From assembly GCA_016000195.1 (NCBI GenBank), contig JAECRO010000022.1:1-46966 (forward strand): a DNA stretch of 46,966 bases. The letters are read 5' to 3'. Source of the stretch: Burkholderiales bacterium. GTDB lineage: Bacteria; Pseudomonadota; Gammaproteobacteria; Burkholderiales; Burkholderiaceae_C. Shown here in pieces: positions 8,934 to 43,560 of this stretch; the first letter of the stretch is position 1; every line of letters begins with the position of its first letter. Position numbers and translations under genes: made by a program. The notes beneath the pieces were generated by a model that was not told the DNA's origin, ran no database searches, and saw only the letters and a program-made list of their open reading frames with translations.

Positions 8934-11216
8934 ATGTCTGTTATTGAAAATATCCAGAAGCTACTCAAAACCAGGTCAGGCCAGCCTGAAGACAGTATGA
9001 CCATGGCTTCCGCACAGATGGCGGGTGATTCCTTTGCTGCCAGTTCCATGAATGGGAGAGCCCGGATTTCTGCAGCAGAAGCGCAGGAAGAGATTTTTTC
9101 GCCCAGCAGCATGGCGGCGGTTACTGGCGACGGTGTGCTCGTCAACACAGAGCTTCTGAGTCTTCCGGTGCTGGGTTTACGTCCTCTGGGCGAGCACCAG
9201 AAAATTTTGGTGGTGGTGCTGGCCGTCGCGGTCGCAGCGCTGGCGCTGGTGACATTTTTTGCACTGAGCAAGGCGGACCGCGTTGCGCAGCAGGTGGCGG
9301 CAACCGGACAGGTCCTGATGCAGTCGCAGCGACTCGCCAAATCCGCATCGCAGGCCCTGGTCGGCAGTGCCCAAGCCTTTCCCGATGTGCGGGAAAGTGC
9401 TGATGTGATGGCTAAAACAGTGCGTGGAATGAAGTCCGGTGACGAAAGCCTGCGGCTGTCCGCAGTAAGTGGTGCGTTGCAGCCTGTGGTGGATAAATTC
9501 ACTCCTCTGGTCGAGCGGGCCGAGCAGAACGCCAACATCGTCATGGGCCAGCAAACCATTTTGCTGCAGGTTGGGGAAGCTTTGCGAACCATCAACCGGC
9601 AGTCTTCCGACCTGCTCGAAATCGCTGAAACCATTTCCTCTCTCAAGCTTCAGCAGAATGCGGCCCCGACAGAAATTTCTGCATCGGGCCAACTGGTGAT
9701 GCTGACACAGCGGATTGGCAAATCTGCCAACGAGTTCCTGACCATGGCGGGCGTAAGTCCCGAAGCGGTGTTCTTGCTGGGCAAGGATTTGAATTCATTC
9801 AAGGAAATCGCCCAGGGCCTGCTTGAAGGCAGCCCTGAACTGCGCTTGGGTGCAGCCAAGGATTCGCAGACGCGCGAGCGTCTGCAGGCCCTGATAGCGC
9901 TTTACGAAAAGACGCGGGTGCAGGCCGGTGCCATTCTGGGCAATTTACAGGGTCTGGTTTCCGCCCGCGAAGCGCAGGCTTCGATCATTGCAGACAGCGA
10001 ACCTTTGCGTCGCGACCTTGAGGATTTGCAGGAAAAACTGTCTTCCCAAACCGGCCTCGGTGCCGGTGCGCTTGCCACGCTGGTTTCCGCCGCCTTTATT
10101 GCCCTGTTGTGCGCAGCAGGTCTGGCCCGCCTGCAGGTGAAGGACAGTCAGCAGCGCCAGGCCGTGGCGGAGGACCAGCGGCAGGATGCCAAAAGCCAGG
10201 AGCAGGATGCCAAGCGCGTCAATGATGCCAATCAGGCCGCCATTTTGCGTCTGATGAATGAATTGCAGACAGTGGCCGATGGCGATCTGACGCAGGAAGC
10301 AACGGTGACTGAAGACATTACCGGCGCTATCGCCGATTCGGTGAATTACACGGTGGAGGAGTTGCGTCAGTTGGTGGGTAACGTGCAAAGCACGGCTACC
10401 CGGGTGGCCCAGACGACTGCGCAAGTGGAAAACACCTCCACGGAGTTGTTGGCCGCTTCGACCCAGCAACTGCGCGAAATTCGCGAAATCGGCCAGTCGG
10501 TGCTCGACATGGCGACCCGAATCAACGAAGTGTCCACGCAGGCCCAGGAATCATCGCTGGTGGCTCGCCAGTCACTGACGGCTGCCGAATCTGGCCTGCA
10601 GGCGGTGCAAAACACCATCGGCGGCATGAATTCCATTCGTGACCAGATTCAGGAAACCTCCAAGCGCATCAAGCGACTGGGTGAGTCGTCGCAGGAAATT
10701 GGCGAAATTACCGAACTGATTTCAGACATTACCGAGCAAACCAATGTGCTGGCGCTCAACGCAGCCATCCAGGCTGCCTCGGCCGGTGAAGCCGGACGGG
10801 GTTTCTCGGTGGTGGCCGAGGAAGTGCAGCGGCTGGCTGAGCGTTCGGCCGATGCAACCCGCCAGATTTCAGCGCTGGTCAAGGCCATTCAGACCGATAC
10901 CCAGGATGCCGTGGCCGCCATGGAGCGCTCAACGCAGGGTGTGGTCGAAGGGGCCAAACTTTCCGACAGCGCCGGCACGGCATTGTCCGAGATTGACCAG
11001 GTGTCGCGCCACCTTGCTGACCTGATTGAACAAATTTCCGATTCTGCTTCCCGGGAAGCTGTATCGGCCAATGTGGTTGCTGACAACATCCAGCATATTT
11101 TTGTGGTGACGGAAAAAACCGGCGAAGGTACCCGTTCAACTGCCCTGCAGGTGCGCGACCTCTCCCGTATAGCGGAAGAATTGCGGCAATCGGTGTCGCG
11201 ATTCAAGATTGCCTGA
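8934..11216 (+). CDS. pilJ: Methyl-accepting chemoreceptor PilJ
   Basis: A 760-residue receptor for the pilus chemosensory pathway. It has an unusually long cytoplasmic N-terminus of about 88 residues before the first membrane helix (about 90-111, rich in V, A, L). A periplasmic sensor of two similar PilJ-type helical modules follows (the VLMQSQRLAKSASQAL and LVMLTQRIGKSANEFL repeats). The second membrane helix is at about 376-398, then HAMP. The cytoplasmic coiled coil has the conserved hairpin tip FSVVAEEVQRLAERSADATR (about 624-643). No C-terminal methyltransferase tether is visible. In Pseudomonas, PilJ senses surface contact through PilA; the ligand here is unknown. Confidence 0.94.
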   Translation: MSVIENIQKLLKTRSGQPEDSMTMASAQMAGDSFAASSMNGRARISAAEAQEEIFSPSSMAAVTGDGVLVNTELLSLPVLGLRPLGEHQKILVVVLAVAVAALALVTFFALSKADRVAQQVAATGQVLMQSQRLAKSASQALVGSAQAFPDVRESADVMAKTVRGMKSGDESLRLSAVSGALQPVVDKFTPLVERAEQNANIVMGQQTILLQVGEALRTINRQSSDLLEIAETISSLKLQQNAAPTEISASGQLVMLTQRIGKSANEFLTMAGVSPEAVFLLGKDLNSFKEIAQGLLEGSPELRLGAAKDSQTRERLQALIALYEKTRVQAGAILGNLQGLVSAREAQASIIADSEPLRRDLEDLQEKLSSQTGLGAGALATLVSAAFIALLCAAGLARLQVKDSQQRQAVAEDQRQDAKSQEQDAKRVNDANQAAILRLMNELQTVADGDLTQEATVTEDITGAIADSVNYTVEELRQLVGNVQSTATRVAQTTAQVENTSTELLAASTQQLREIREIGQSVLDMATRINEVSTQAQESSLVARQSLTAAESGLQAVQNTIGGMNSIRDQIQETSKRIKRLGESSQEIGEITELISDITEQTNVLALNAAIQAASAGEAGRGFSVVAEEVQRLAERSADATRQISALVKAIQTDTQDAVAAMERSTQGVVEGAKLSDSAGTALSEIDQVSRHLADLIEQISDSASREAVSANVVADNIQHIFVVTEKTGEGTRSTALQVRDLSRIAEELRQSVSRFKIA

Positions 11217-11271
11217 CTCTCTGCATGATGTACTGACTGCGAATCCCGATTCCTGAACCTGCCTGTTATTT

Positions 11272-14200
11272 ATGCACTCCATGGTCACGAATTCAACTGC
11301 CGCCGAACCCGATGTCGTCATGAATGACCTGGGCCCGCTGGCTTGGGTGCTTAACGAGCTCTGCAAGTCGCTGGAGGCTGCTACCAAGGCGCTCAAGCGC
11401 TTTGCCAAGGATGCCGACAGCGCGCGTGGTTCCGATCTGGCAGCAATAGACGCCAGCCAGTTGCGTATTGCGCGGCAGCAACTTCATCAGGCCGTCGGTG
11501 CCCTGGAAGTGGTCGGGCTGGCGGAGCCCGCAATGATGCTGCGGGCCATGGAAGCCGCTGTACAGAAGTTTGTGCAACAGCCTGAGCTTTGCAGCCAGGA
11601 TGCGGTCGCCAAAATTGAGTACGCCAGCTTTGCATTGACTGAATACCTCGAAGGGGTGCTGGCAGACAAGCCGGTTTCTGCCGTGTCCTTGTTCCCCCAA
11701 TACCGCAACGTTCAGGAACTGGTGCGCGCCGACCGTATCCATCCGGCCGATTTGTGGGCCTACGAATGGCGATGGCTGGAGCCGCAACTGTCTGTGATGC
11801 CCGAGGCGCGTCATTACGACGCTGATGCCCGTGCCCTTCTGGACCAGTGGGTTCTGCAACTCATGAAAGGCAAGGCCCCGAAAGCCGCACGCAGTCTCAG
11901 GGATTTGAGTCTCGGATTTGCAGCCAGCCAGACTGAACGGCAGCCCAGGATTTTTTGGTTGATTGCGGCCGGCTATTTCGAGGCCATCGCCCACAACCTG
12001 CTGGGTTCTGATTTGTATGTCAGGCGGGCTGCTTCCAGAATTTTGTTGCAATACGCCTCACTGTCCAGAGGGGAACCTTCAATCTCGGAACGGCTGGCGC
12101 TGGACCTGCTTTTCTTTTGCGTTCAGGCGGTGTCAAACCGGGCCAGTGACACGCCTGTTCTTTCGGCTGTGCGATTTGCCTATGGGCTGACACGGTTCAA
12201 ACCAGTGGATTACGAGTTGGTTCAGTTTGGCCGCTTCGATCCGGCACTGCTGGCACAGGCGCGCAAGCGTATTGTCGTGGCCAAGGAGGCGTGGTCTTCG
12301 CTTTGCGCCGGCGAGATTGCCAAAATCAAGCAGGTTGCGGACCAGTTCAGCCTGGTGGCCGACTCCTTGCGCAAACTCTATGAAGCCAGCGAGCCGCTGG
12401 CGCAAGCCCTGCTTCAGGCGATCGACGCAACAGTGCGCAGAAATCAAATACCTGCGATTGCACTTGCGATGGAAGTCGCGACATCCGTGCTTTACCTGGA
12501 GGCGGTATTTGATGACCTTGATCCCGCCGATCCACAACTGGCGGCAAGGACCGCCAGTCTGGCAGAGCGGCTCCAGGGCGTCATCCATGGTGGCGAACCC
12601 CAGTCGCTTGAAGCCTGGATGGAAGAGTTGTATCGCCGGGTCAGCGATAAACAGACCATGAGCAGCGTGGTCACCGAATTGCGAGTGTCACTGGCTGAGC
12701 TTGAACATTCGCTGGATTTGTTCTTTCGCAACCCGCAAGACAAGGCAAGTTTGCAGTTGGTGCCAGGGCAGCTGTCACAGATGCGCGGCGTACTGTCGGT
12801 ATTGGGGCTTGACCAAGCCTCGAAGGCGGTCCTGCATATGAAGGGCCGTGTCGAGGAAATGCTTGACACTGAAATTGATGAGCAGCAGGTGCGTGCGGCC
12901 GGCACATTCGAGCAGCTTGGCAACAACCTGGGCGTCTTGAGTTTTCTGATCGACATGCTCAATTACCAGCCTGCGCTGGTGAAAAAGCTGTTTGTTTATG
13001 ATGAGGAAAAAGACGAACTCATCTCCCTGATGGGCCGTTCGTCACGCGCCAGCGACGCGGCTTCAAGCATCACCATAAATACCGAACCGTTTTTTGAGCC
13101 GGTTTTGCCGGAACCTGTTTCTGCAGCACACGGTACAGAAAATGATGTGCCCCATGAAATGCTCGGAGCCGAGTTTGATCCGCTTGCGATTTCCACTGAT
13201 GTAGCCGCGCCACTGGAGGTGGAGCAATCCACACATGATGCGCACGATGCCATTTTCGGGCATCCCGCTCAAGCCGAAGCATTGCCCGAGATGGCTTTTG
13301 CCGCGCCGCAGACGCCCCCGGTACGGGTCGAGCCGTTGATCGCCATGGATTTTGAAGAAGATGATTTGCGCGATATTTTCCTTGAGGAAGCTCGCGAAGT
13401 CACAGGCAACGCCGTTCAGGCGATCAATACGCTGGAAAGCCATCCCGAGGACATTGAGCAATTGACGGTATTGCGGCGTGCCTTCCACACACTCAAAGGC
13501 AGTGCGCGGATGGTCAAGCTGAACGAGTTTGGCGAAGCTGCCTGGGCGATGGAGCAAATGCTCAACAGCTGGCTGGCTGACCAGAAAACAGGTACCAGGG
13601 AGTTTCGTACCTTATGCGCCGATGTCATCTCCGGTTTCGAGCGCTGGATTGATGACATAGCCGCAAATCAGGATGGCGCATGGTCGGCGGTTGGGTTTTG
13701 CAGCAGCGCAGATGCCATGCGCATTGACGGGCGCTACCTTGCGCTCAAGCTGTCCGGCCAATCCGGCGATTCATTTGAACTGCCTTCCATTGCGGATAGG
13801 CCGGTTTCTGAAACTGCGACGCAGGCTGATACCGGCTTTGCGGCGCCGATCGGGTTCGACATCATTCTCGATGACGAACCTGCCGCAGCACCAGTTGCCG
13901 TACCGGCCGAACTGGATGAGCTGGAATTTGACAGCCTGTTCGCGCAGTCCTCTGAAAGCAGTGTGCCGTCAGCTGTTGCCGGTTCTGCGGATGCAATCGA
14001 GTGGCCGCCAGCCATGGCGCAATCCGAAACGGTTGTAGCTGCTGCAACCGACAGCGGCAACATTGAAGAGCCGGACGACATAGAAGGAAAAGAAGAGGAC
14101 GCGGTCAAGGTGATTGACGGATTGCGCATCGGCATTCCTCTTTACAACGTGTATTTGAATGAGGCCGATGAATGGTCGCGCCGTTTGGTCAATGAAGTGG

Positions 14201-31086: not shown

Positions 31087-33267
31087 ATGACCGAACGCAC
31101 CCCCGCCCACCGCCTGCAAGTGGCGACCGAGCTTTTCAACTTCATCGAAGACAAGGTGCTGCCCGGCGCCGGCGTTGCCAGCGAGGCGTTCTGGAGCGGC
31201 TTTGACGCCATCGTCGCCGACCTGGCGCCGAAAAACATCGCCCTGCTGGCCGAGCGCGACCGCCTGCAGCTGGAGATGGACGCCTGGCACAGCGCCCACC
31301 CCGGCCCGATTGCCGACATGCCCGCCTACCGCGCCTTCCTGGAGCAAACCGGCTACATCACGCCCCAGCCGCAGGACGTGACCATCACCACCGCCAACGT
31401 CGATGCCGAACTGGCCGTGCAGGCCGGCCCGCAGCTCGTCGTGCCGATCCTGAACGCCCGCTACGCGCTGAACGCCGCCAACGCCCGCTGGGGTTCGCTG
31501 TACGACGCGCTGTATGGCACCGACGCGATTCCCGAAACCGATGGCGCTGAAAAAGGCCAGGGTTACAACCCCGTGCGCGGCGCCAGGGTCATCGCCTTTG
31601 CGCGTGACTTCCTCGACCAGTCCGCGCCCCTGGCGAGCGGCTCGCACAGGGATTCGACCGGCTACAGCGTCGCAGGCGGCCAGCTCGCCGTCACGCTGGC
31701 TGACGGCTCCACGACCGGCCTGGCCACGCCCGCCCGGTTCGTCGGCTACCAGGGCGAGGCCAGCGCGCCCACGTCCGTGCTGCTGGTTCACAACGGCCTG
31801 CACATCGACATCCTCATCAACCGCGCCACGGCCATCGGCAAGACCGATTCAGCGGGCGTGAGCGACATGGTGATCGAGTCGGCGATCTCGACCATCCTCG
31901 ACCTGGAAGACTCCGTGGCCGTGGTCGATGCCGAAGACAAGGTGCTGGCCTACGGCAACTGGCTGGGCATTTTGCAAGGCACACTGACCGAGGAAGTCAG
32001 CAAGGGCGGCAAGACCTTCACGCGCGGCCTGAACCCCGACCGCGTGTACACGGGCGCCAACGGCCAGCCGGTCACGCTGCACGGCCGCTCGCTGATGTTC
32101 GTGCGCAACGTCGGCCACCTGATGACGAACCCGGCCATCCTGTACGACGGCGGCAAGGAGATTCCCGAAGGCATCATGGACGCGGTCATCACCACGACGA
32201 TTGCCATCCATGACCTGCAGCGCAAGGGCAACTCGCGCACCGGCAGCGTCTATATCGTCAAGCCCAAGATGCACGGCCCGGCCGAAGTCGCCTTTGCCTG
32301 CGAGCTGTTCAGCCGCGTGGAAAGCCTGCTCGGCTTGAGCCCCAACACCGTCAAACTCGGCATCATGGACGAAGAGCGCCGCACCAGCGTCAACCTCAAA
32401 GCCTGCATCGCCGAAGCCCAAGCGCGCGTGGCCTTCATCAACACCGGCTTCCTCGACCGCACCGGCGACGAGATGCACACCGCCATGCAGGCCGGCCCCA
32501 TGATCCGCAAGGGCGACATGAAGACCAGCGCCTGGATTACCGCCTACGAAAAGAACAACGTGCTGGTCGGCCTGAGCTGCGGCCTGCGCGGCAAGGCGCA
32601 GATCGGCAAGGGCATGTGGGCCATGCCCGACCTGATGGCCGCCATGCTGGAGCAGAAAATCGGCCACCCGAAAGCCGGCGCCAACACCGCCTGGGTGCCC
32701 AGCCCGACCGCCGCCACGCTGCACGCGCTGCATTACCACCAAATCCTGGTGTCGGATGTGCAAAAAGAGCTGGAAAAGATCGACGCCAACGCCGAGCGCG
32801 ACACCCTCCTCAACGGCCTGCTGCAAATCCCGGTCACGGCCACGCCGAACTGGTCGGCGCTAGAGAAGCAGCAGGAACTCGACAACAACGCCCAGGGCAT
32901 TTTGGGCTACGTGGTGCGCTGGATCGACCAGGGCGTGGGCTGCTCGAAAGTGCCCGACATCCACAACATCGCGCTGATGGAAGACCGCGCCACGCTGCGC
33001 ATTTCCAGCCAGCACATGGCCAACTGGCTGCACCACGGCGTCGTGACCCAGGCGCAGGTCAAGGAAACCTTCGAGCGCATGGCCGCCGTGGTCGATGGCC
33101 AGAACGCGGGTGATCCGCTGTACAAGAACATGGCCGGGCACTTCGACACGTCAGCGGCGTACAAGGCGGCTTGCGATCTGGTGTTCAAGGGGCTGGAGCA
33201 GCCGAGCGGCTACACCGAGCCGCTGCTGCATGCCTGGCGCTTGAAGGTGAAGGCCGGGACGGTTTGA
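31087..33267 (+). CDS. glcB: Malate synthase G
   Basis: A 726-residue monomeric malate synthase that condenses glyoxylate with acetyl-CoA. ATG 31087 gives [19 protein letters not shown]. Family stretches include [72 protein letters not shown], and near the C-terminus [20 protein letters not shown] with [10 protein letters not shown]. The length is normal and the gene appears intact. A 91-base stretch (32931-33021) recurs 10.5 kb downstream beyond the accessory island. Together with icd at the far end it belongs to the isocitrate/glyoxylate branch point. Confidence 0.97.
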
Positions 33268-33328: not shown

Positions 33329-33351
33329 AGGCCTTTTTGGCGCGAGGCAAT

Positions 33352-35118
33352 TCAGCCGCCGGTTCCCGTCATCGCCATCAGCTTGGCAAAAAAGCGATGC
33401 ACATCCTCGTGGATTTCATCGGCCGTCATGGCCGTTGCGACACGTTCGCGCAGCACTTCCACCGAGGGCTCACCCCTGCGCAGGGTGTGAAACAGTGAAT
33501 CGTTGTTTTCAAACAGGATGCGTTTGCCGTCCAGCACCGCAAAGATATTGGCCGTCACGGTGCGCCAGGTCTTTCCCGGCGGCAGCGTGAGGTTCTGATC
33601 GGAAAAGAACGCGTCAATCGCCTGAAGCACCGGCTGATTAAAAAGATCTCCGTCCAGGTTGTTCAAGCTCTGGAGCGCCGCACGCCGCCAGGCAGGCGGC
33701 ACCAGCAGATAGTTCTCGATGTTCTTGCGCTTCCACTCCACCAGAGTCGGGTTGCCTTCTGGCGGATGGAAGGCTTTATCCGCATCGTCGTAGTCAAACA
33801 GCATCAGGCGCTTCACGCCGGGCACGATCTGGCTCAGTGCGGCGAAATGCTTGTCAGCCTGCTCTTTCATGGCTTGCTTGTTGCCCCCGCCCATCACCTC
33901 GAAACAGAGCTTGTCCATCACCGGCAGCGCGCCGCACTGCTCGGCCCAGCCGCGCAGGATGCGCTCATCGCTTTCGCCCTCGACATACACCATATAAGGC
34001 GCACCCGCCAGGCGGGCAATGTTTTCGTTCGACACCTCGGACATCGCCCGCAGGATGGCTGGCGTTGATTCAATGCGTGTCGGCACCTGCTTGAGCAAAG
34101 ACAAAATCTGGTGCGCGTCCACGCCCTTGGCGAATTCCTCCGCATGGGTGGCGATCAGGAATTGAACCCCTTTTTCAGCCGCTTTTTTCTTGAAGTAATC
34201 GAGTATTTCACGCTGCAGATTGACGTGCAGATGCGCGTCGGGCTCGTCCAGCAAGATCGTCGTGGGCTGGTAGCCGTACAAAAAAGCCAGCAGCGTCATG
34301 GTTTGATGAAAACCGCTGCCCCCGGAAATCAGGTCGTAGGTCTTGCCGTTCTGCTTGTATTCCACGCCGATGTACACATCCTTGGCAGAGTCGTACTGCG
34401 GGGGAATCAGCTCGACGGAAAACCAGCGTTTGACCACACTGGCCAGTTCGGTCCAGTCGGCGGGCACGGGCGGGCGTTTGGCGGGATTGGCCTGTTCAAG
34501 GGCACCTTCGTCTTCAGCAGGCGGGCGCCACACCTGCAGCAGCAAATTGCGCAGCACACTGCCCGGCTGCCCCTTGCCGACCTGCTGCCGGATGGGCGCC
34601 TTGTCGAGCCATTTTTCCGCCGGCTCCAGCCCGGAAAACGGCGGCACATAGGCAATCCGGGGCAGCTTGCCCTTTTCTTCGCAATCCCTGAACGCTTTCC
34701 AGCCACCCGCCGGAATGGCATACATGGTCTGCGGCGAATGGTAGCGAAGCTCTACCCCGAACGCCTGGGTGGTGCCGCCTGGCGCGCTCCACTCCAGCAA
34801 GATTTCAATCAGGATGAACTTCTGTTTTTTTGCCCCGTTCTCGTCCGTCGGATACGCCCGGTCCGTGCGGTCTTTCCACAGCAGGTTGAATTCAGGAACG
34901 GGCAGGGCCGTGAAGTTGGGCAACACGATTTGAATGCCGGTGCTTCCGCTGCGCCTGGCACGGTGAAACTCGTCCATGCAGAATTGCCAGATCGCCAGCG
35001 ACTGCAGCACGGTGCTTTTGCCGCTGTTGTTGCGCCCCACCAGCAGGTCAAAGTTGGTGAACTTGTAGAGTTGGTCGCCAACACTTTTGAAGTTGCGCAG
35101 GGTCAGCTGGGTAATCAC
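33352..35118 (-). CDS. OLD-like AAA/ABC ATPase with TOPRIM nuclease domain
   Basis: A 588-residue protein built like OLD-family nucleases. The ATPase half opens with LTLRNFKSVGDQLYKFTNFD; Walker A is GRNNSGKST (residues 28-36), the ABC signature is LISGGSGFHQTM (about 262), Walker B is TTILLDEPDAHLH (about 286) and the H-loop is IATHAEE (about 322). The TOPRIM half has VYVEGESDERILRG (about 377) and a DYDD motif (about 437) that would bind Mg2+. It starts within the methyltransferase stop (ATGA overlap), so it is translationally coupled and probably works with it. Gabija GajA has the same overall architecture, but no GajB partner is seen. Confidence 0.87.
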   Translation of the reverse strand: MITQLTLRNFKSVGDQLYKFTNFDLLVGRNNSGKSTVLQSLAIWQFCMDEFHRARRSGSTGIQIVLPNFTALPVPEFNLLWKDRTDRAYPTDENGAKKQKFILIEILLEWSAPGGTTQAFGVELRYHSPQTMYAIPAGGWKAFRDCEEKGKLPRIAYVPPFSGLEPAEKWLDKAPIRQQVGKGQPGSVLRNLLLQVWRPPAEDEGALEQANPAKRPPVPADWTELASVVKRWFSVELIPPQYDSAKDVYIGVEYKQNGKTYDLISGGSGFHQTMTLLAFLYGYQPTTILLDEPDAHLHVNLQREILDYFKKKAAEKGVQFLIATHAEEFAKGVDAHQILSLLKQVPTRIESTPAILRAMSEVSNENIARLAGAPYMVYVEGESDERILRGWAEQCGALPVMDKLCFEVMGGGNKQAMKEQADKHFAALSQIVPGVKRLMLFDYDDADKAFHPPEGNPTLVEWKRKNIENYLLVPPAWRRAALQSLNNLDGDLFNQPVLQAIDAFFSDQNLTLPPGKTWRTVTANIFAVLDGKRILFENNDSLFHTLRRGEPSVEVLRERVATAMTADEIHEDVHRFFAKLMAMTGTGG

Positions 35119-38100
35119 TGGATCAATCCTCTTTCAACATCGCGGCAAGCATTGTGGGCCGCCACCTTGACGGGCTGGGGCACCAGCGGGAAAGTAGCCA
35201 GAATGTGGGCGAATTCGGCTTCGCTCAGGCCGTAGAGATGGGCGGCCAGGCCGTCGAGTTCGGCGCGCAGGCGGGCGCGCTCGGTGGGGTCGGTGGCGCC
35301 GTCCTGGTGGCTTTTCAGGCCCACGGATTTGGCGAGGCCATCGAATTCGGGCGTGGTGCAGGTGAGGCGGGCGGCGCGCTGGACGATGGGAGTAAAGCGC
35401 GGGTCAGTAGCAGCCAGGCGCGGCACTGGCAACTGATGCAGATAAAAGAAATTGATCGTCGTCGTTACTTTCTGGCGCAACACCCAATCCATGACAAAAC
35501 TATTCCAGACGGCGCACAGAAATAGCTGAATGGCATCATCAATCTGCCGACGCCCCTGCGGGTCGAAAACTTTGGCCGTCGGTAGTTTGTTGCCATGAAA
35601 GGTGGGCGGGATCATCGCGCAAATCAGCGTACGTGTGTCTGTATTTCTTGCAATATCCCGAAATCCAAGCCGATAGGCTTGATAGTCCAGTGACTGCCCC
35701 TCATCAGGTCGCCGCCCCAGCACTGACTTTCGGCCTGCCGCCACGTCAACCCAATAACGCGGTTCAAGATAATCCGCATCAAACTGCCAAATCATCTTTC
35801 CTTCATATAGCGGAAGACATCCCGCCTCCGGCTGAGTCTTGAACAAGTGGCTGTCGCTAGTCATATGAAACTCGGCGCTAAAACCAATATTCCATGTCGC
35901 AGGTAATTGCTCACCCAGCAACGGAAAGCGCAGCATCTTTTCGGCAATTAAAACGTCAGCTTCCGCTTTGAACTCCATCACCGAATGACTATCCGGCGAC
36001 AAGCGCTTGATCAGTTCCACTTCCAGCCACAGCGCGCCCTCTTGCGGAAAACGGCTCAGTTCCGCCACATCGTGACGCATGAAAGCCGCTGGAAAACGTT
36101 TAGTGCCGCCGCCGTTGGCTTCTTCAATCGCCTGCGGAGCCAATAAATCATCAGGTGGCGCGCTGGCGTTAGCTTCGCCGGTTTGCTGCAGGCGCGGGGC
36201 GGCTGATTTTTCAAAGGTCAGCACCACGAACTTGAAGCTGCGGTGAACGCCTTCAAAAATCTCCTTGCGGTTTTCAAAACAGAATAAGCCTTGAATGTGC
36301 GTTTGTTCAAACAGCAAGTCGCGCAAACCTTTTGCGCCCAGGTCGGTGTAAATGCCGCTGGGAATCACAATCCCGCAATGCCCGCCCGGCCTGAGCAGGT
36401 GAAAGCTGCGCTCGACAAACAGTTTGTACAAATTCACATCGCTGCCGGTTTTCTTGCCGCCGACCACTGCGCTTTGGTGCCTGAACTCGGGTGCGGCGCG
36501 AAACCAGCCGCTCATGTGCGGAAACCGGCTTTCATACGCCAGCCACGCCGCCTGCACTTCGGGGTTTTGCAGCAGCTTGGCGCTTTCTTTTTCAAACTCC
36601 TTGATGGTCATTTTGTTTTTGCTGACCACGTCGGAATACTCGGCAAAGAACTCCTTGGCCTGCGGTTTAAAAACTTCCCACGGCGGATTGGCCAGAATAA
36701 TGTCAAAGCCGCCGCGCCGCTGCACGATGTCGTCAAACACATAGCCCCAGTGAAACGGCGTCTGGGCCTGAATATCGCCGGTCTCCATCGGGCGTTTTTG
36801 CGGTTTGCCCAAGGCGTGCCTGGCCGCGTCCCAGGTAGCTTGTTCAAACCGGACATCCAGTTTTTCAAACTGGTCGCGCAGCAGCTCGTTCATGACGCCA
36901 TTGGCATCGCGCATTTCCGCATCAATGCCGTCGCGCAGTTCCCGCAGGTTGACATGCTGGCCCAGTTGCTCGGCGCAGTGGCGGTAGGTGTCGAGCTTGC
37001 GGTTCTTGGTCGCCAGCAGTTCGGCAAATGGCCGTGGCTTTATCTGTGCAAACAGGCCCAGCTGGGTGTTCTTCTGGTTGAACTCCACCTCGTCCACCCG
37101 CATCAAGCCCACCAGCGAATTGCCCGGCAGGATGTTGAAGTCGATGTTGGGCAGCGGCTCCAGGTCTTCTACCTTGCGCACACTGGACACCATCGCCAGA
37201 AAGAGCCGCAGCTTGGCGATTTCGCAGGCCTCTTCCATGATGTCCACGCCGTGCAGGTTGTCGGTCACGATGCGGCGCTTGATGTAGTAGCCGACGCTGG
37301 CATGGTCTTGCTGGATGCGGGTCAGCCAGTTTTTCAATTCGCTGCTCGCGCCCATTTCGGCGCGGCCGACGATGGCGTAATAGACGTTGATCAGGCACTT
37401 GAGCGCCGCCACCAGAAAAGCGCCCGAGCCCACCGCCGGGTCCAGGATGGTGATGCCGGGCAGCACGTCGTTGACCAGCTTGAGCGCGGTGCGCGCGTCC
37501 ATGCGGGCCAGCAGGTCGGACACGGTGTTGAAGCTGATTTCTTTCAAGCCCAGTTCGGGAATGGCCGGTTCATGCACCCGCTCCAGAATCATCTGGTGAA
37601 TGCTGCGCTCGGCCAGGTAGCCGGTGATTTCGGGCCGGGTGTAGTAGGCGCCAAAGGCTTTTTGGTTGATGTACTTTTCAAAGATGTAGCCCAGCACGTC
37701 GGGATTGATCTCGTCGGCATCGCCGCCGGGCGTGTCGTCCAGGTGCCAGGTGAAGCTGGCGAACAGGTCAAAAATCCCTTTGAAAGCGGCATCGGCCACG
37801 GTCAGCGTGGCGCCGACACGCGGCTGGCCGGCTGCGTCCAGCTCCAGCTTGTGGTGCAGAAACAGACCGCCGTTGAGGTAGGGAATCTTGCCGGTCAGCG
37901 CTTGGGCGGCAGGGCTGCGCTCGGCTTCGGGCTTGGCGAAGGCTTCAAAAAACAGGGCGTTGAGGAATTCGCCAAAAAAGCGGTTGGGTCCGCGCTGCTC
38001 ACTTTTTTGTAGCTGCTCATGCAGGTAGTCAAAGCGCTGGAGGTCTAAAAAGCCCTTTTTTTGCAGAAACCAGACAAACATCAGCCGGTTCAGCAGCACG

Positions 38101-38723
38101 CTGGCGTACCAGCGCTTGTCGCGCTCGTTGTCTATGCCCTTGATGTGGGCGAGCAGCTCCAGGTGCTGCTGCTGGTAGGCGGTGAAGAATTTTTTCGTGG
38201 TCTTGTCCACGTCCAGCGCGGCCTGGATGCGGCGAGCGGCTTCCAGCACGGGCAGGCGGCCGGTGGCGTCCAGCTCGGACAGCTCCACCACCATCGCTTG
38301 CAGCTTGGAGGCGAACAGGTCCACTGGCTGGCCGCGAAAGTATTCGTGGCGGCGGGCGGTCAATCGGGGCTTGCCGGTTTCTGGATGTTTGTCGCGCTTG
38401 ACCCAGTACCACTGGCTCTGGCTGGCCTTGTCTTGGCTGTCGGTGAAGATCAGCAGGTTTTCGGCATGGCGGTGGGCGATGTGTTTCCAGACGCGCAGGC
38501 GCTGGGCCTCGTCGGGCCAGCCGCCATCGGCCACCACCTGAATGGCGACCACGCCGCCGAGTTCGGCCACGGTGCGGCGGGTGAAAGGGGTTTCACCAGC
38601 GGTGTCGGCTTGCCACTGGCCTTCAGCGGGGGCGCGGTTCCAGCCGAGCACATCGACGAACAGGCGGGAAAAGTCAAAAGCGCGCAGGTGTTTTTCAAAG
38701 GCGGGGAAGTCAAGTTTGGCCAT
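35115..38723 (-). CDS. Eco57I/COG1002-type DNA adenine methyltransferase with C-terminal specificity region
   Basis: A 1202-residue protein. Residues 1-330 are an N-terminal region of unclear fold (AIQVVADGGWPDEAQRLRVW, then a helical part); a degenerate PD-(D/E)xK nuclease cannot be ruled out but I see no clear motif. The methyltransferase domain has motif I DPAVGSGAFLVA (about residue 428), IIEEACEIAK-like NLHGVDIMEEACEIAKLRLF, and motif IV ILANPPWEVF (about 678), an N6-adenine type. The C-terminal 300 residues resemble a target-recognition region (IPPTFHGNKLPTAKVFD, then TTTINFFYLHQLPVPRL). It is preceded by two direct repeats and overlaps the OLD-like gene. Similar proteins occur in class 1 DISARM (DrmMI), BREX (PglX) and type IIG/ISP systems. 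Confidence 0.88.
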   Translation of the reverse strand: MAKLDFPAFEKHLRAFDFSRLFVDVLGWNRAPAEGQWQADTAGETPFTRRTVAELGGVVAIQVVADGGWPDEAQRLRVWKHIAHRHAENLLIFTDSQDKASQSQWYWVKRDKHPETGKPRLTARRHEYFRGQPVDLFASKLQAMVVELSELDATGRLPVLEAARRIQAALDVDKTTKKFFTAYQQQHLELLAHIKGIDNERDKRWYASVLLNRLMFVWFLQKKGFLDLQRFDYLHEQLQKSEQRGPNRFFGEFLNALFFEAFAKPEAERSPAAQALTGKIPYLNGGLFLHHKLELDAAGQPRVGATLTVADAAFKGIFDLFASFTWHLDDTPGGDADEINPDVLGYIFEKYINQKAFGAYYTRPEITGYLAERSIHQMILERVHEPAIPELGLKEISFNTVSDLLARMDARTALKLVNDVLPGITILDPAVGSGAFLVAALKCLINVYYAIVGRAEMGASSELKNWLTRIQQDHASVGYYIKRRIVTDNLHGVDIMEEACEIAKLRLFLAMVSSVRKVEDLEPLPNIDFNILPGNSLVGLMRVDEVEFNQKNTQLGLFAQIKPRPFAELLATKNRKLDTYRHCAEQLGQHVNLRELRDGIDAEMRDANGVMNELLRDQFEKLDVRFEQATWDAARHALGKPQKRPMETGDIQAQTPFHWGYVFDDIVQRRGGFDIILANPPWEVFKPQAKEFFAEYSDVVSKNKMTIKEFEKESAKLLQNPEVQAAWLAYESRFPHMSGWFRAAPEFRHQSAVVGGKKTGSDVNLYKLFVERSFHLLRPGGHCGIVIPSGIYTDLGAKGLRDLLFEQTHIQGLFCFENRKEIFEGVHRSFKFVVLTFEKSAAPRLQQTGEANASAPPDDLLAPQAIEEANGGGTKRFPAAFMRHDVAELSRFPQEGALWLEVELIKRLSPDSHSVMEFKAEADVLIAEKMLRFPLLGEQLPATWNIGFSAEFHMTSDSHLFKTQPEAGCLPLYEGKMIWQFDADYLEPRYWVDVAAGRKSVLGRRPDEGQSLDYQAYRLGFRDIARNTDTRTLICAMIPPTFHGNKLPTAKVFDPQGRRQIDDAIQLFLCAVWNSFVMDWVLRQKVTTTINFFYLHQLPVPRLAATDPRFTPIVQRAARLTCTTPEFDGLAKSVGLKSHQDGATDPTERARLRAELDGLAAHLYGLSEAEFAHILATFPLVPQPVKVAAHNACRDVERGLIQ

Positions 38724-38727
38724 ATGG

Positions 38728-38764
38728 GGGAGAGTTAATGTCGATATCAGGCAGGAAATTTGTC
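38728..38764. repeat. 37-bp direct repeat, copy 1, abutting the methyltransferase start
   Basis: It is identical to the copy at 38797-38833. It contains GATATC within TCGATATCAGG and ends four bases from the methyltransferase ATG, so it covers the usual ribosome-binding position. The 32 bases between copies include a hairpin and T run. Confidence 0.9.
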
Positions 38765-38778
38765 GTGGCCGCGTCCAA

Positions 38779-38801
38779 TTAAAAAATGCCCGCCTCGGGA
38801 G
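38779..38801 (-). terminator. Small terminator-like hairpin between the 37-bp repeats
   Basis: Reading the minus strand, CCCGAGGCGGG (4-bp stem, 3-base loop) is followed by CATTTTTTAATT. It could attenuate read-through from the AlbA-type gene into the methyltransferase gene. The stem is short, so this is tentative. Confidence 0.4.
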
Positions 38802-38833
38802 AGTTAATGTCGATATCAGGCAGGAAATTTGTC
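38797..38833. repeat. 37-bp direct repeat, copy 2
   Basis: An exact repeat of 38728-38764, in the same orientation, 69 bases away start to start. Positioned upstream of the methyltransferase gene, the pair may be operator sites or a local duplication. Confidence 0.9.
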
Positions 38834-38886
38834 TTTAATTTTCAAAAAACACAATGAATTCAATGGCTTAGGTTTTAAACCATGGC

Positions 38887-38936
38887 GTTAATCTGCGTTA
38901 ACTTGTGTTAATTCGTACTAATCTGCACCAGTCTGG
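38887..38936. repeat. Period-10 tandem repeat at the 3' end of the AlbA-type gene
   Basis: Five 10-base units: GTTAATCTGC, GTTAACTTGT, GTTAATTCGT, ACTAATCTGC and ACCAGTCTGG. The last two units are the final codons of the upstream gene; the first three are non-coding. Confidence 0.65.
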
Positions 38937-39949
38937 GTGATGGCCGTGTAGTAGCTGCCCCGCTTTTCACCATGTCGCTCCAGTAGCCCGCGTGCCACCA
39001 TCTGGTCCAGCCGGTGTTTTGCTTGCCGGGGACTCAAGCGGCACAGCGCAATGACATCTTCACGCTTGATGCGCGTTTGCTGGCGCAAGAGGTTGCGAAT
39101 CAACTCCACTTGTTGCAGTTCGTCAAATCCGGCCTGTCGTGCATATTCGGCACTTTGCCCCAATTGCTTGTACACCTGCGGGCTCAAGGTGTACTGCCGG
39201 CCCCGCCCAATGCCGTGCGCCTGAACCAGGCCGTTTTCAACCAGGGGCTCGATCAGCTTGAGAACCTGGGTCGCTGCACATTGCAAATGCGCGCTTAATT
39301 CAGCGGCACTCAGCCGTCTGGCCTCGCGCAAGGATGTGAGGATCAGCAGGGTCTCCACCGGCAATGCGCCATGCTGCCGCGCTTCTTCATGCAGCACCAT
39401 GCGCACAAAAGCCAGGTTGTCGCTGCGAGGGTTGTTGGCGATGACCGAGCGCAGGCGCTCACGCTGGAGCGAGTCAAAGTCTGCCAGCGTGGCGTCGGCC
39501 ATGACTTCGGCGGACAGGTCAATTAGCCGAAAGTCAGCACGGCGGCTGGGGTATTCGTGCGGCAAAAACGGGACGCATTCGGGCTGGCCGTTGCCGCCAA
39601 TGCGCCGGCGCTTGACCAGACCGTCAGAGCGGGCGATCACTTCGGGGCTGCGCGGCACCGTCAGGGCGGCTACGCGCAAATTTTCATGCAACAGGATTTC
39701 GGTGCGAATGTGCAGGCTTGGCGCCGTGCGATTGGCTACCAGAGCCGCCAGGCCGCTGATGTCCTGGGGGCGCTTGATGTGCAAACCCGTGACCTGACCG
39801 TCGTCTTCCACGCCGAGGTACAGAACGCCACCCTGAGCATTGGCCAGGCAGATCAAGGCTTCAATGAGCTGGTCGTCGCTGAGCGAGTCACGGTCGCTTT
39901 TGAATTCAACCTCCAGCGTTTCGCGCAACGGGATCATCCGCGCCGTCAT
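38918..39949 (-). CDS. AlbA_2/Schlafen-type putative DNA-binding protein with winged-helix C-terminus
   Basis: A 343-residue protein. The N-terminal 110 residues have the AlbA_2 (formerly divergent AAA-4) pattern: LRETLEVEFKSDRDSLSDD, then EALICLANAQGGVLYLGVED and HENLRVAALTVPRS. The C-terminal half has winged-helix stretches, including LSAAELSAHLQCAATQVLKL and IKREDVIALCRLSPRQAKHR. ATG 39949 overlaps the helicase stop (ATGA), so I prefer it to the upstream in-frame start at 39982. Such proteins act as regulators or nucleic-acid effectors; some Schlafen-fold proteins are RNases. In this operon it may sense DNA or control expression. Confidence 0.82.
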   Translation of the reverse strand: MTARMIPLRETLEVEFKSDRDSLSDDQLIEALICLANAQGGVLYLGVEDDGQVTGLHIKRPQDISGLAALVANRTAPSLHIRTEILLHENLRVAALTVPRSPEVIARSDGLVKRRRIGGNGQPECVPFLPHEYPSRRADFRLIDLSAEVMADATLADFDSLQRERLRSVIANNPRSDNLAFVRMVLHEEARQHGALPVETLLILTSLREARRLSAAELSAHLQCAATQVLKLIEPLVENGLVQAHGIGRGRQYTLSPQVYKQLGQSAEYARQAGFDELQQVELIRNLLRQQTRIKREDVIALCRLSPRQAKHRLDQMVARGLLERHGEKRGSYYTAITQTGAD

Positions 39950-42900
39950 GCGGACATCCCAGCCACCAGCCCCAACGAACACACCACACGCGGCTCGCGC
40001 AGCGCGCTATCGTCTTCGGCATAGGTCAGGCGGCCTTCTTCGCGCAGGGATTTGACTGCGCCGGCCAGCTCTTCGTCGTGTACGCCGCCGCGCATCAGGC
40101 GGTTGAGGAGGTCGCTTGAGGTTTCGAGCAGCGGGCGCTGGTACAAGTCGTCCAGGGCGCGCTCCAGCGCTTCGTCGCGGAACAGGGTGGCCATTTGCTC
40201 GGCGGCATAGGGTTTGAGCCGCTCGTAGGCGCGGCGGCGCGGGCTGCTGGGGCGGCCCAGGCCACCGCCCACGGCTTTGTCCTGCACCACGGCGAGTTGC
40301 AGGCCGCTGGCGACCAGTTCGTGGTGATTTTCAAGCCGCGCCACGGCGGGCGTGCCGGGCGCGCATTCGGCGGCGCGCAGCACGGCAAATTGCGATTCGG
40401 TGACGATTTTTCCGCTCGCGCCTATCCACGCCAGATGGTCGTTGCCTTCGGGCGACTTGACATAGACCAGTGCCCCGCCTTGGGCGGCATCTAGGCCCAA
40501 GAGCGGAAAGCGCGCCTCGTCCAGCGCAAAGGCTTTGGCCGAATACACCACGGGCGGCAGCGACTCGACGGCGCGGGCCAGGTCGGGGTTGCCCTCGGTG
40601 GCTTCTTTCCAGATTTGCCAGGCGTAGGAAGCCAGGTCCACCTCGTCATCGTTGTCGTCGAGAATGCCTTGCTGCTCGGTGTAGAGGTTGCGGATGGTGT
40701 TGGCTTCTTCGTCGTCGAAAAACTCTTCGTCCGTGCCGACGACTTCGGCGTTTTCCTTCAGGCGCTGGCGAATGCGGGCGCGCAGCTGGATGAGGTTTTC
40801 CACGCCGTCGGCGGGCAGGAATGAATAGCAAAAAATCTCTTCGGCCCGCTGGCCGATGCGGTCCACCCGGCCGGCGCGCTGGATCAGGCGGATGATGGCC
40901 CAGGGCAAATCGAAGTTGACTACGACGTTGCTGTCTTGCAGGTTCTGGCCTTCGGAGAGCACGTCGGTGCAGATCAGCACGCGCACCTCGTCGGCCTTGG
41001 CGATGGCTTTGCTGTTGGACTTGGGCGAAAAGCGGCAGGCCAGCGCGTAGGGGTCGGCGCTCGTGCCGGTGGCGACTTCGACATGCGTGACGCCCGCCCG
41101 GCGCACTTCACGCGCCAGGTAGCGGGCGGTGTCGGCAAACTGGGTGAAGATCAGCACCTTGTCCTTGGCGTGGGTTTTGGTGATGAGCTGGCGCAGGGCC
41201 AGCAGTTTCTGATCCTGCGCCGGTTCCCAGTGGCCTTGGGTGGCTAAAAGTTCGCTCAGGGTTTGGGTGTCTTGCGCCAAGTCAGCCGCCAGCGAGGGCT
41301 TGAACAGGCCGGGACGTATCCATTTAAAACGCTTTTTGTACTGGCCGGCGTACTGCGCATAGACCGCTTTGGCTCTGGCCATATCGCCGGGGATGTTGTC
41401 AGGGATGGCGTCGGGAGCTTGGGTTTGAAGCGCAGTGTCCGGCGCGGCGTCCACCATGCCATCCAATAAATCTTCGGGCTCGCCTTCCACGCCGTCGGCG
41501 TCCTCATCGACGCGCTCCAGATCGAGCAGGCCGGCGTCGAGCACGCCGATGGGCAAATCAAGCCCGTTTTCAATCGCGTAGAGGTAAATCTGGTTGCGCA
41601 AAATGTGCCGGTCAATCGACTGCAGAAACGAAAAGCCGTTGGACTCCAGCCGCTTGAACAGGTTGGTGCGGCAAAAGCCCATCAGCCGTTTGCCGGCGCG
41701 CCCCAGATTGCCGATGATTTTGCGCTCAGTCGGCGTGGCGGACTTTTCCGCCTGCGGCTCGACATACAGGCCCAGGCCGTAGCGCGGCACATGCAGCGCG
41801 TTGATCTGGTCCACCACCGCCGGCGAATACAGCCGGGCGTAGCGGTCAGCTGGGTCGGCGTCGTTGACCGCGAACTGGAGCGAGACGGGTTTGCGCACCG
41901 GGAAATAACGCTTTTCGTCATCCTGTCCCGCGATGTAGCGGCGGCCCTGTTTGTCGGCCTGGGTGTAGTGCTGAATGATGAAGCTGCGGGTGCGGCGCAC
42001 CATGTAGAGGCGGATCAGCTCGCGCCAGTCGTCGAACTCGTCGCTTTTTTCAATCGCCAAAATGGAATTCACCCGGCATTGGTGCTTGCGCTCGAACTCG
42101 GCTTCGCTCACGCCCAGCTTGCGCATGTGGTGCTCGGGGCGAATGCCGATGTTGGCTTTCTCGTCGATGAACAGGCGCAGCTGGGCTGACAGGTCGTGCT
42201 TGGTTTTGTTGTACGGCGTGGCGGTGAGCAGGATGACCTTGGCATCGCAGCTTTTGATGTAGTCGGCAATGGCTTTGTAGCGCCGCCCTTCGCGGTTGCG
42301 CAGGTTGTGGCTTTCGTCAATCAAGACCAGCCGGTAGCGTTTGAGGCCGGGCAGCTTTTTGATGACTTGCGACACCGGCAGCACCATGCCGCGCAGGCCG
42401 TATTCAGTCCGGTAGCGCTCCCACATGGGTTCGAGGTTTTTCGGGCAGATGATGAGGGTTTCATAGCCATGATCGTCCTCGAACATGCGCGCCAGGGCGG
42501 TGGCCATCATGGTTTTGCCCAGACCCACCACGTCGCCTATCATCACGCCGCCTCGGCGGTGCAGATGCCGGGCGGCAATCTTGACGGCGCTTTTCTGGAA
42601 CTCGAACAGTTCGCGCTCAAAGCGCGCTGGCAGGCGGAACTGGCTCAGGCCCGCCCGCGCTTCGGTGCTGAGGTGGTAGGCGATGTTGAGGTAGATATGG
42701 TGCGGCGGAATTGGCTCCTCGCGCGCCCAGCTGTTTTCGATCAGGGCGGCCAGCTCGCCAGAGACATCGAGCGCCCAGCGGTCGCCCCAGCGCGCATCAA
42801 ACCATTTCGACAGTTTTTCCGTGCCCATGTGGTCGAGCACATCCACATTGAGTTCGCCATGCCGCGACAGGCCCGAGAGCGTGAGGTTGCTGCTGCCGAC

Positions 42901-43371
42901 AAAGCCGGTGACGGGGTTGTTCACATCGTCGCGGAACAGTAAATAAAGCTTGGCGTGCAGCGGGTAGGGCAGGAAAAGCTTGACCATGACTTGCCCGGCT
43001 CGCAACTGGCGGGCCAGGCGGCGCAACCCAGCCTCGTCCTGCCCGGTAGGGATGCCCAAGGTGATCTGCTCGCGCAGGTGAGCTGCAAACTGGGTCTTCA
43101 GGCGGCTGGCCGTGGCGTTGTCAATCAAGCCGTTCTCATCGGTCTGGCGGTACAGCTCGCGAATTTCCTCATGAGGAGGCCGCTGCATGCCCACCAAGAC
43201 CCGGCACACTTGCCCGGCAGCAGGGTTCCACGGCGCAACCAGGTCATCAATCGCCTGCCAGCCCCGCAGGTTGAGATAGCCTACACAAAAGTCTGAACGA
43301 CTGGAAACCTGCATGGTCGCGCGCAGCGTGGTCAGCAAGTCGTTGTCAATATTGTCAAATATGCGGGCCAT
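39946..43371 (-). CDS. Phospholipase D-SNF2/DEAD helicase fusion protein
   Basis: A 1141-residue protein. The N-terminal PLD-type nuclease domain has one HKD motif: H139-A-K141 in PLHAKLYLLFRDD, then GFVGSSNLTLSG. The helicase core follows: Walker A GDVVGLGKTMMA (about 280), motif II LIDESHNLRN (about 350), motif III LLTATPYNK, the second RecA domain VLIFTQFADTARYLAREVRR, and motif VI QRAGRVDRIGQ (about 835). The C-terminal 250 residues are undefined. MARIFDNIDNDLL at ATG 43371 is the likely start; a longer frame exists to 43440. A PLD dimer could cut DNA while the SNF2 motor translocates. It is first in the island operon. Confidence 0.88.
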   Translation of the reverse strand: MARIFDNIDNDLLTTLRATMQVSSRSDFCVGYLNLRGWQAIDDLVAPWNPAAGQVCRVLVGMQRPPHEEIRELYRQTDENGLIDNATASRLKTQFAAHLREQITLGIPTGQDEAGLRRLARQLRAGQVMVKLFLPYPLHAKLYLLFRDDVNNPVTGFVGSSNLTLSGLSRHGELNVDVLDHMGTEKLSKWFDARWGDRWALDVSGELAALIENSWAREEPIPPHHIYLNIAYHLSTEARAGLSQFRLPARFERELFEFQKSAVKIAARHLHRRGGVMIGDVVGLGKTMMATALARMFEDDHGYETLIICPKNLEPMWERYRTEYGLRGMVLPVSQVIKKLPGLKRYRLVLIDESHNLRNREGRRYKAIADYIKSCDAKVILLTATPYNKTKHDLSAQLRLFIDEKANIGIRPEHHMRKLGVSEAEFERKHQCRVNSILAIEKSDEFDDWRELIRLYMVRRTRSFIIQHYTQADKQGRRYIAGQDDEKRYFPVRKPVSLQFAVNDADPADRYARLYSPAVVDQINALHVPRYGLGLYVEPQAEKSATPTERKIIGNLGRAGKRLMGFCRTNLFKRLESNGFSFLQSIDRHILRNQIYLYAIENGLDLPIGVLDAGLLDLERVDEDADGVEGEPEDLLDGMVDAAPDTALQTQAPDAIPDNIPGDMARAKAVYAQYAGQYKKRFKWIRPGLFKPSLAADLAQDTQTLSELLATQGHWEPAQDQKLLALRQLITKTHAKDKVLIFTQFADTARYLAREVRRAGVTHVEVATGTSADPYALACRFSPKSNSKAIAKADEVRVLICTDVLSEGQNLQDSNVVVNFDLPWAIIRLIQRAGRVDRIGQRAEEIFCYSFLPADGVENLIQLRARIRQRLKENAEVVGTDEEFFDDEEANTIRNLYTEQQGILDDNDDEVDLASYAWQIWKEATEGNPDLARAVESLPPVVYSAKAFALDEARFPLLGLDAAQGGALVYVKSPEGNDHLAWIGASGKIVTESQFAVLRAAECAPGTPAVARLENHHELVASGLQLAVVQDKAVGGGLGRPSSPRRRAYERLKPYAAEQMATLFRDEALERALDDLYQRPLLETSSDLLNRLMRGGVHDEELAGAVKSLREEGRLTYAEDDSALREPRVVCSLGLVAGMSA

Positions 43372-43468
43372 GTGTGAATTGGATTCGTTTTTGTAGTCGG
43401 AACATTGTGCCTTTGCTGGCAGGCGCTTCCGGCGCGCCAAGGTCGAGGTTCAAAGCCCTGATGTTCAT

Positions 43469-43560
43469 GGGCGTGGGCGGCTCCAAGGCGCCCGGCATCC
43501 ACAGCATCGCGCTGATGGAAGACCACGCCACGCTGCGCATTTCCAGCCAGCACATGGCCG
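43469..43560 (+). pseudogene. glcB: Short fragment of a malate synthase G gene
   Basis: 91 bases align without gaps to glcB 32931-33021 with seven mismatches. Translated, GVGGSKAPGIHSIALMEDHA and ISSQHMA correspond to the C-terminal part of malate synthase G. Homology stops sharply at both ends. It lies 98 bases outside the start of the PLD-helicase gene, in the same orientation as glcB. It cannot encode a product; it is a scar of recombination or of a lost second copy. Confidence 0.85.

Follow-up and report, generated by a model that had tools for sequence, protein, structure and literature searches.

What kind of system is encoded by the four genes that fill the interval between glcB (malate synthase G) and icd (isocitrate dehydrogenase) in a Burkholderiales bacterium (assembly GCA_016000195.1, contig JAECRO010000022.1), and which of them belong together? 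The window analyzed here is one entire contig of 46,966 nucleotides, in which the four genes read leftward, from position 43371 to 33352 on the − strand, in the order HKD-SNF2 motor, AlbA_2/winged-helix protein, Eco57I methyltransferase (MTase), and ABC ATPase with TOPRIM residues. A first-pass annotation of this DNA placed the four co-directional genes correctly and proposed that they form a single anti-phage system. That proposal is not borne out: what is conserved is a two-gene unit in which the HKD-SNF2 motor (39946..43371, − strand) precedes the Eco57I/NPPW MTase (35115..38723, − strand). Judging from the sequences, we think it likely that these two genes form an ATP-dependent restriction-modification (RM) system and that the other two are passenger effectors.

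How firmly is the motor tied to the MTase? A genome scan with nine aligned motors at a loose threshold returned at least 582 stretches with at least 578 motor relatives, of which the best 80 were kept; these loci, a non-random sample selected by motor similarity, are mostly metagenome-assembled and lie on short contigs. Contig ends or a broken motor exclude nine of the 80, and 68 of the 71 testable loci have an MTase relative downstream, on the same strand and at most 2.5 kb from the motor, with a gap of between −3 and 40 bases in 35 of the 68. The three exceptions are L115, where the MTase lies directly upstream, L098, where an MTase fragment lies upstream, and L104, where there is none in the following 2.2 kb. 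Likewise, the MTase is downstream of the motor in all five viral loci (the contigs with close relatives among 80 listed, the other 75 being distant partial matches) and in all eight plasmid loci examined among 40 listed. By record titles, the best 80 relatives span about twenty phyla, from Pseudomonadota to Bacteroidota, Chloroflexi, and cyanobacteria. A scan of the viral collection with a single protein query gave no relative, and no near-identical match turned up in E. coli genomes.

The motor is 1141 residues long counted from its ATG (a longer open reading frame [ORF] call starts at a TTG at position 43440), and it is the fusion of a PLD domain with an SNF2-type helicase that had been described in the first pass (Pfam PLDc_2 and SNF2/Helicase_C). 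Its HKD site has the pattern H-x-K ... GSSN ... E, and residues H139, K141, D149, N162, and E173 are identical in 34 of 34 aligned motor relatives, as are the Walker and helicase residues. In a wider alignment of 93 rows, all six checked HKD residues are kept in 82, seven rows differ at position 149 alone, L044 differs at three places, and three rows are unreadable. Fold comparison supports the SNF2 fold; it mostly spans motor residues 234-917 and ATPase residues 1-367 and is uninformative on the PLD and TOPRIM structures. In L044 (a Dolichospermum plasmid, 9892-14100), K141 is among the changed residues and a 285-residue MTase ORF adjoins the motor, a possible decayed pair. The idea that MTase loss tracks HKD decay fits L044 but not L053 or L104, and we did not use it. 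The genome of the window also carries two loci from distant subfamilies with an HKD-SNF2 protein and an MTase, L033 (G000:C58, 7932-16045) and L031 (G000:C75, 3-5799); in both, two small ORFs separate the two genes, and the MTase of L031 is cut by the contig end.

The MTase is, as the first pass had it, a 1202-residue NPPW adenine methyltransferase (Pfam Eco57I, 76.4 bits), with the motifs DPAVGSG (residue 428) and NPPW (residue 679), and Pfam matched no nuclease domain within the polypeptide. Its regions relate differently to the motor. In subtype 1 (18 loci, Mantel test), motor identity correlates with identity in the N-terminus (rho 0.79, p 0.001) and core (rho 0.53, p 0.001) of the MTase and weakly with that of residues 1101-1202 (rho 0.36, p 0.047), and it shows no such correlation with residues 841-1100 (rho −0.17, p 0.83). 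Similarly, 60-residue windows along the subtype 2 proteins (38 loci) give rho values of 0.26 to 0.86 up to the NPPY motif and of −0.02 to 0.16 beyond it. Because the N-terminus of the MTase tracks the motor and the part beyond NPPW varies without regard to it, we read that part as a putative target-recognition domain that is exchanged on a frame co-evolving with the motor.

These observations also bear on a reading in which there is no restriction, the MTase controlling gene expression and the motor remodeling DNA. An SNF2 fold would suit such an epigenetic regulator, and MTases can regulate transcription, as the available part of one report describes (PMC7296061). However, conserved HKD nuclease residues, a post-NPPW region that diverges independently of the motor, and the toxin- and nuclease-like genes of the accessory slot described below argue for restriction, and we regard a purely regulatory role as very unlikely.

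Can a recognition site be assigned to any member of the family? The Synechocystis plasmid pSYSX encodes a homologue of the pair, and by annotation it has two DNA MTases, SGL_RS01600 of the pair and a type I enzyme; tblastn combined with the catalytic motif in ORFs of at least 200 residues recovered the same two. We take slr6050 to be the gene name of the methylase M.Ssp6803IV. According to the accessible portions of two papers, pSYSX encodes two MTases, among them M.Ssp6803IV (PMC6604393), this enzyme makes GAm6AGGC (m6A, N6-methyladenine), and the other pSYSX motif is assigned to the type I genes (PMC7296061). Since the plasmid has two MTases and the other motif is given to the type I genes, the MTase of the pair would, by elimination, be the GAm6AGGC methylase.

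Do the two remaining genes of the window belong to the same system? A co-directional gene follows the MTase within 60 bp in 33 of the 55 loci with enough contig, and an ORF of at least 70 residues lies between motor and MTase in 13 of 81. Recurrence of all four genes in other genomes had been suggested as a check, and we ran it over 92 loci, from 4 kb upstream to 8.5 kb downstream of the motor (many contig-cut; L066 left out): an AlbA_2 gene and a window-type ATPase gene are both near the motor in none. Weak ATPase-profile matches in L046, L058, L060, L094, and L098, and weak AlbA matches that fall within MTase ORFs (L077 and L113), leave this result unchanged. In the closest complete relative, L050, whose motor is 80% identical, the ATPase slot is occupied by an ATPase and a DUF4276-like gene, a combination that is also present in L039, L060, L083, L085, and L114 (the Pfam DUF4276 cut-off was passed only in L039 and L060 among five tested). 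An ATPase-TOPRIM of the window's family sits between motor and MTase in L057, an AlbA_2-HATPase gene comes after the pair in L052, and AlbA_2 genes lie further downstream in L088 and about 3 kb past the MTase in L122. Other slots contain PIN (L041-L043), KilA-N (L087, L090), DUF3800 (L076), or MTaX1-HNH (L063) genes. Pfam was run on 66 of 114 picked accessory proteins, upstream ones being left out, and among the matches listed (25 of 70 families) were 8 AAA_21, 6 DprA-like, and 2 each of SLFN_AlbA_2, KilA-N, TIR_2, MTaX1, and DUF3800.

Two side observations concern the same slot. A small DprA-like protein recurs downstream of the MTase (L058, L063, L069, L079, L128, L130, L131, and L132), a count of eight by phmmer from the L058 protein and of 6 of the 66 accessory proteins by Pfam. 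In L081 (9133-12426), the unusual neighbor directly after the MTase is an LRR-Roc-COR protein.

We also weighed a dedicated four-gene system, new and rare, in which all four proteins cooperate. Genes 1 and 2 overlap, as do genes 3 and 4, all four lie in one glcB-icd insert, and the motor family is found near AlbA_2 in L052, as a fused remnant in L053, and at greater distance in L088 and L122. Against this, none of the 92 other loci has both accessory genes nearby, L050 fills the slot with a different ATPase and a DUF4276-like gene, and the relatives of each accessory gene occur in unrelated RM operons, those of the ATPase also in viral contigs. We therefore judge the four-gene system unlikely and treat the motor and MTase as the core, with the AlbA_2 and ATPase genes as passengers.

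The AlbA_2 gene (38918..39949, − strand) encodes 343 residues with the expected AlbA_2/Schlafen domain (Pfam SLFN_AlbA_2, 53.7 bits) and a winged helix, and overlaps gene 1 by ATGA. In its AlbA_2 and winged-helix parts it is 47-48% identical to three homologues, which are AlbA_2-HATPase_c_4-winged-helix proteins of about 554 residues; aligned with the 553- and 554-residue homologues, the window copy is missing some 205 residues from its middle, those covering HATPase_c_4. One homologue is flanked by hsdS and hsdR in a type I operon (L230, confirmed by Pfam), another has the same layout as judged by ORF sizes and sequence starts only (L233), and a third is upstream of an SNF2 and Eco57I pair (L236). 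Of 299 family genomes, 11 (counting the window's own) have a match at E ≤1e-10, and a search of plasmids gave none. The copy in L053 (Polaromonas sp. UBA5171, 10001-12647) is broken: motor residues 1-696 are fused to the HATPase portion of an AlbA_2-type protein, and the winged-helix portion of that protein falls in the next ORF. From these alignments, the AlbA_2 gene is a shortened relative of a known RM-operon passenger. The 194-bp gap between it and the MTase start contains an exact 37-bp direct repeat found by repeat search (38728..38764, just upstream of the MTase start, and 38797..38833, both − strand), with starts 69 bp apart; no further copy was found in the genome with up to 3 mismatches allowed, and the repeats are a possible operator.

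The fourth gene (33352..35118, − strand, GTG start) encodes a 588-residue ABC ATPase (Pfam AAA_15/AAA_21). It overlaps the MTase gene by GTGA, so that of the two ATGA couplings in the first-pass annotation only that of motor and AlbA_2 has this sequence. The annotation's ATPase assignment stands; its TOPRIM has no Pfam match and is placed by aligned acidic residues, E380, D384, D442, and E468, which are invariant in 13 of 13 relatives, and of which only E380 and D442 reach at least 90% in a wider 17-row alignment. On these aligned residues, the order of an ABC ATPase followed by TOPRIM acidic positions points to the OLD class, and the match to the OLD nuclease structure 6p74 scores 49 bits. 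The protein is 24-30% identical to 12 aligned fused relatives, and its closest relative, at about 60% identity, is a 343-residue gene in two viral contigs (L297 and L298, 8001-10219), where a separate 396-residue gene comes next.

Where else does this ATPase family occur? Among the 369 genomes of the class, 12 (counting the window's own) have a relative at E ≤1e-15, and we examined the context of fourteen stretches. By Pfam, the ATPase is part of an hsdS-PIN-ATPase-hsdR operon in the window's own genome (L240), has a NERD-kinase (PglW-like) on one side and a DUF7008 Eco57I MTase (PglX-like) on the other in L289, is beside a DUF1156 MTase with DUF499 nearby in L284, and accompanies an N6_N4 MTase and a ResIII protein in L291 and L285. 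In L296 the match falls between ORFs that blastp labels hsdR and hsdS, and no ORF pick recovered it. For L286-L288, L290, and L292-L295, no RM gene is among the labels, and no Pfam scan was made there. In viral-collection contigs a single ATPase gene of 575-604 residues recurs (for example, L299-L306 and L309), again with no RM gene among the labels. The first-pass annotation cast the OLD nuclease as an attacker of unmodified DNA; because its relatives are found in other RM-like operons and in viral contigs without a labeled RM gene, it is better read as a candidate independent effector than as the restriction nuclease. The accessible text of a Campylobacter study places rloA/rloB inside an R/M region (PMC2928727).

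How might the pair restrict DNA? As had been proposed, we infer that an adenine MTase and a nuclease motor discriminate self from foreign DNA. Type I, type III, and ISP RM systems combine an ATP-dependent motor with a variable specificity region, and the pair resembles them in both respects, with m6A on one strand likely; unlike these systems, it has no separate HsdS or Mod/Res pair, its nuclease is of the PLD kind, and its MTase has its own variable region. We propose that the C-terminal variable region of the MTase reads a short, probably asymmetric site and places m6A on one host strand. At unmodified sites, the N-terminal domain of the MTase would load the HKD-SNF2 protein, which would then travel along the DNA. 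In PLD nucleases a single HKD motif is half an active site; cutting would therefore require two motors to meet, in the manner of type III or ISP enzymes, and so make up a two-HKD active site. The shortened AlbA_2-winged-helix protein could be a Schlafen-class regulator or RNase and may act at the 37-bp repeats. The OLD ATPase-TOPRIM would be a self-standing back-up effector, plausibly firing when a phage blocks restriction; PARIS, with its AriA ATPase and AriB TOPRIM nuclease, has been reported to respond to Ocr.

Several points weigh against the two-gene restriction reading. The motor-loading and two-motor cutting steps would follow from domain content only, the residue at position 149 is not universal among the motors, and the predicted HKD and TOPRIM folds lie mostly outside the residues compared. 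L104 has an intact HKD site and no MTase in the next 2.2 kb, which is unexpected under strict self-protection, and some of the partner MTases counted above are short or broken (for example, 285 residues in L044 and 188 in L133, and those of L080, L093, and L096). The region borders used for the subtype 1 correlations were picked after the identity profiles had been inspected, and subtype 2 identity after NPPY averages just 20-32%, such that the absent correlation may partly be poor alignment. Finally, the pSYSX assignment is by elimination and concerns a subtype 2 MTase, and in pSYSX two small genes, one of them PIN/VapC, separate motor and MTase.

Is the pair a known defense system? Comparison with defense profiles had been suggested, and its PADLOC part gave no close match to a named system: no model of PADLOC (2023 copy) or NCBIfam (2026 copy) fits the pair closely, and all four proteins stay below the NCBIfam cut-offs. 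Among the best profiles for the motor are PADLOC C3a139 ‘HKD+Snf2’ (156.5 bits, its best PADLOC score), NCBIfam NF042964 for a phospholipase D-like anti-phage protein (138.8 bits, its best NCBIfam score, against a cut-off of 1100), and PLD_Helicase (81.1 bits); these also put an HKD/PLD domain on an SNF2-type helicase, and the matches cover parts only, C3a139 being compared by profile score alone. The MTase scores best in PADLOC with REase_MTase_IIG (332 bits), type IIG enzymes being those with a nuclease site in the MTase polypeptide itself, and its best NCBIfam score is 87.7 against a cut-off of 353.5 bits. The AlbA_2 protein has weak PADLOC matches only, and those of the ATPase are partial (NsnB 89.2, the best, AriA 65.1, and AriAB 51.3 bits); Menshen (NsnA, NsnB, and NsnC) was considered for this NsnB match and set aside because it is partial; a literature search brought up nothing relevant. 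PARIS (AriA/AriB), Gabija GajA, OLD, HEC-01, and Menshen NsnB also have an OLD-class ABC ATPase with TOPRIM or a similar partner, whereas the window ATPase is one fused protein, and the cassette has no GajB UvrD-like helicase gene beside it.

BREX-related (BR) type 2 and Hma systems, which are centered on DUF499, carry an HKD nuclease N-terminal on a Swi2/Snf2 helicase together with an N6 MTase, as the available part of a recent report describes (PMC12839542). The window motor has this same fusion; however, BR/Hma systems have a DUF499 ATPase (HmaC), and type 2 also DUF3780, neither of which is in the cassette (for DUF3780, by Pfam; the relatives were not searched). Hma/BR was considered since PADLOC lists HmaA, and was dropped for want of DUF499. 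We looked for partner genes in 32 genomes drawn from the 80 loci for their long flanks, on partial contigs. DUF499 (PF04465) is in 8 of them (7 over the cut-off) and never beside the pair, the nearest being 19.5 kb away in one genome; PglZ (PF08665), with BrxC a defining part of BREX, is in 18, in none within 300 kb of the pair on the same contig, and is absent from the cassette (BrxC was not searched in the genomes); and MZB/DUF1998 (PF09369) is in 15, in none nearer than about 200 kb on the same contig. Judged by these parts, the pair falls outside BREX, BR/Hma, DISARM, and ARMADA as defined, though it shares the helicase-MTase theme. In the window's own genome, L032 (G000:C31, 8141-17559) has an HKD-SNF2 gene followed by DUF4391, N6_N4 MTase, and ResIII/RE_endonuc proteins, a type III-like set; its Pfam content ruled out a BR-like reading of that locus.

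Might the pair be what remains of class 1 DISARM or ARMADA after the loss of a large partner? Class 1 DISARM has DrmA, DrmB (DUF1998/MZB), and DrmC beside DrmD/DrmMI, and the pair, like DrmD with DrmMI and ARMADA ArmA with ArmB, sets an SNF2-type helicase by a large Eco57I/PglX-like MTase. The motor scores 121.8 bits against DrmD (NCBIfam) and the MTase 80 bits against DrmMI (PADLOC), and ARMADA, in the accessible part of its description, likewise joins a RapA/SNF2-type helicase to a PglX-like MTase, with a YprA-type helicase, ArmC, in addition (PMC12458937). However, across many phyla the pair persists with no such partner, MZB/DUF1998 is never near it in the 32 genomes, and its nuclease is its own, an HKD domain fused to the motor; the arrangement is thus stable even if ancestry is shared, and we think a remnant quite unlikely. 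The four ORFs fill the glcB-icd interval, so no DrmA, DrmB, DrmC, BrxC, PglZ, or GajB gene stands alongside, which upholds for this interval an absence stated in the first pass for the whole window (the profile scan did not cover the rest), and with it the distinction from class 1 DISARM. Likewise, there is no fifth gene in the cassette that could be an ArmC; here the MZB search served as a proxy, YprA itself not being searched. For the passengers, back-up effector classes reported for BREX/BR systems, in the part of the source available to us, include the Schlafen class (PMC12839542), and both the AlbA_2 gene and the OLD ATPase fit such classes. Candidates embedded in Hma operons have been catalogued as HEC (PMC12988326, available in part).

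How did the cassette arrive? All four genes sit within one inserted block of about 10.2 kb (33339..43555) that fills an empty site: glcB and icd are adjacent in relative G024 (L242), and in a blastn junction comparison of five relatives, homology of L242 to the window ends at 33338 and restarts at 43556, with 30 L242 bases between. Icd was seen within a flank of at most 1.5 kb in 3 of 29 non-own glcB loci (L242, L243, and L244) and not in the flank of the other 26, some owing to contig ends. The right edge of the insert carries a 91-bp glcB-like fragment (43469..43559, + strand) that is 92% identical to the window glcB (left copy 32931..33021, + strand; both by repeat search) and also matches glcB of relatives; the duplication hints at how the cassette came in. 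At 60.0%, the G+C content of the insert is below that of its flanks (62.6% and 62.5%).

A literature search brought up the BR and ARMADA papers and none on a bare HKD/PLD-SNF2 and MTase pair, subscription papers, REBASE, and DefenseFinder being outside that search; we have not seen the bare pair, its breadth, or its specificity-swap signal described. We tentatively suggest, as a possibility somewhat short of an even chance, that the pair represents an ATP-dependent restriction class of its own, minimal and widespread, in which one MTase provides specificity for both marking and cutting, a single-HKD motor cuts only after two such motors have converged from asymmetric sites, and a plug-in slot holds guard effectors (OLD-TOPRIM, ATPase with DUF4276, Schlafen, PIN, KilA-N, and DprA-like), some of which are also found in type I, type III, BREX, and DUF499 systems. 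The pair is widespread, reaching about twenty phyla among the best 80 of at least 578 relatives, yet has no close PADLOC or NCBIfam model. A tractable relative exists in Synechocystis sp. PCC 6803, and if the pSYSX assignment is true, the known motif GAm6AGGC would be tied to a nuclease motor. Finally, the occurrence of one OLD-TOPRIM family in four further kinds of RM-like operon bears on whether restriction systems routinely carry anti-restriction guards.

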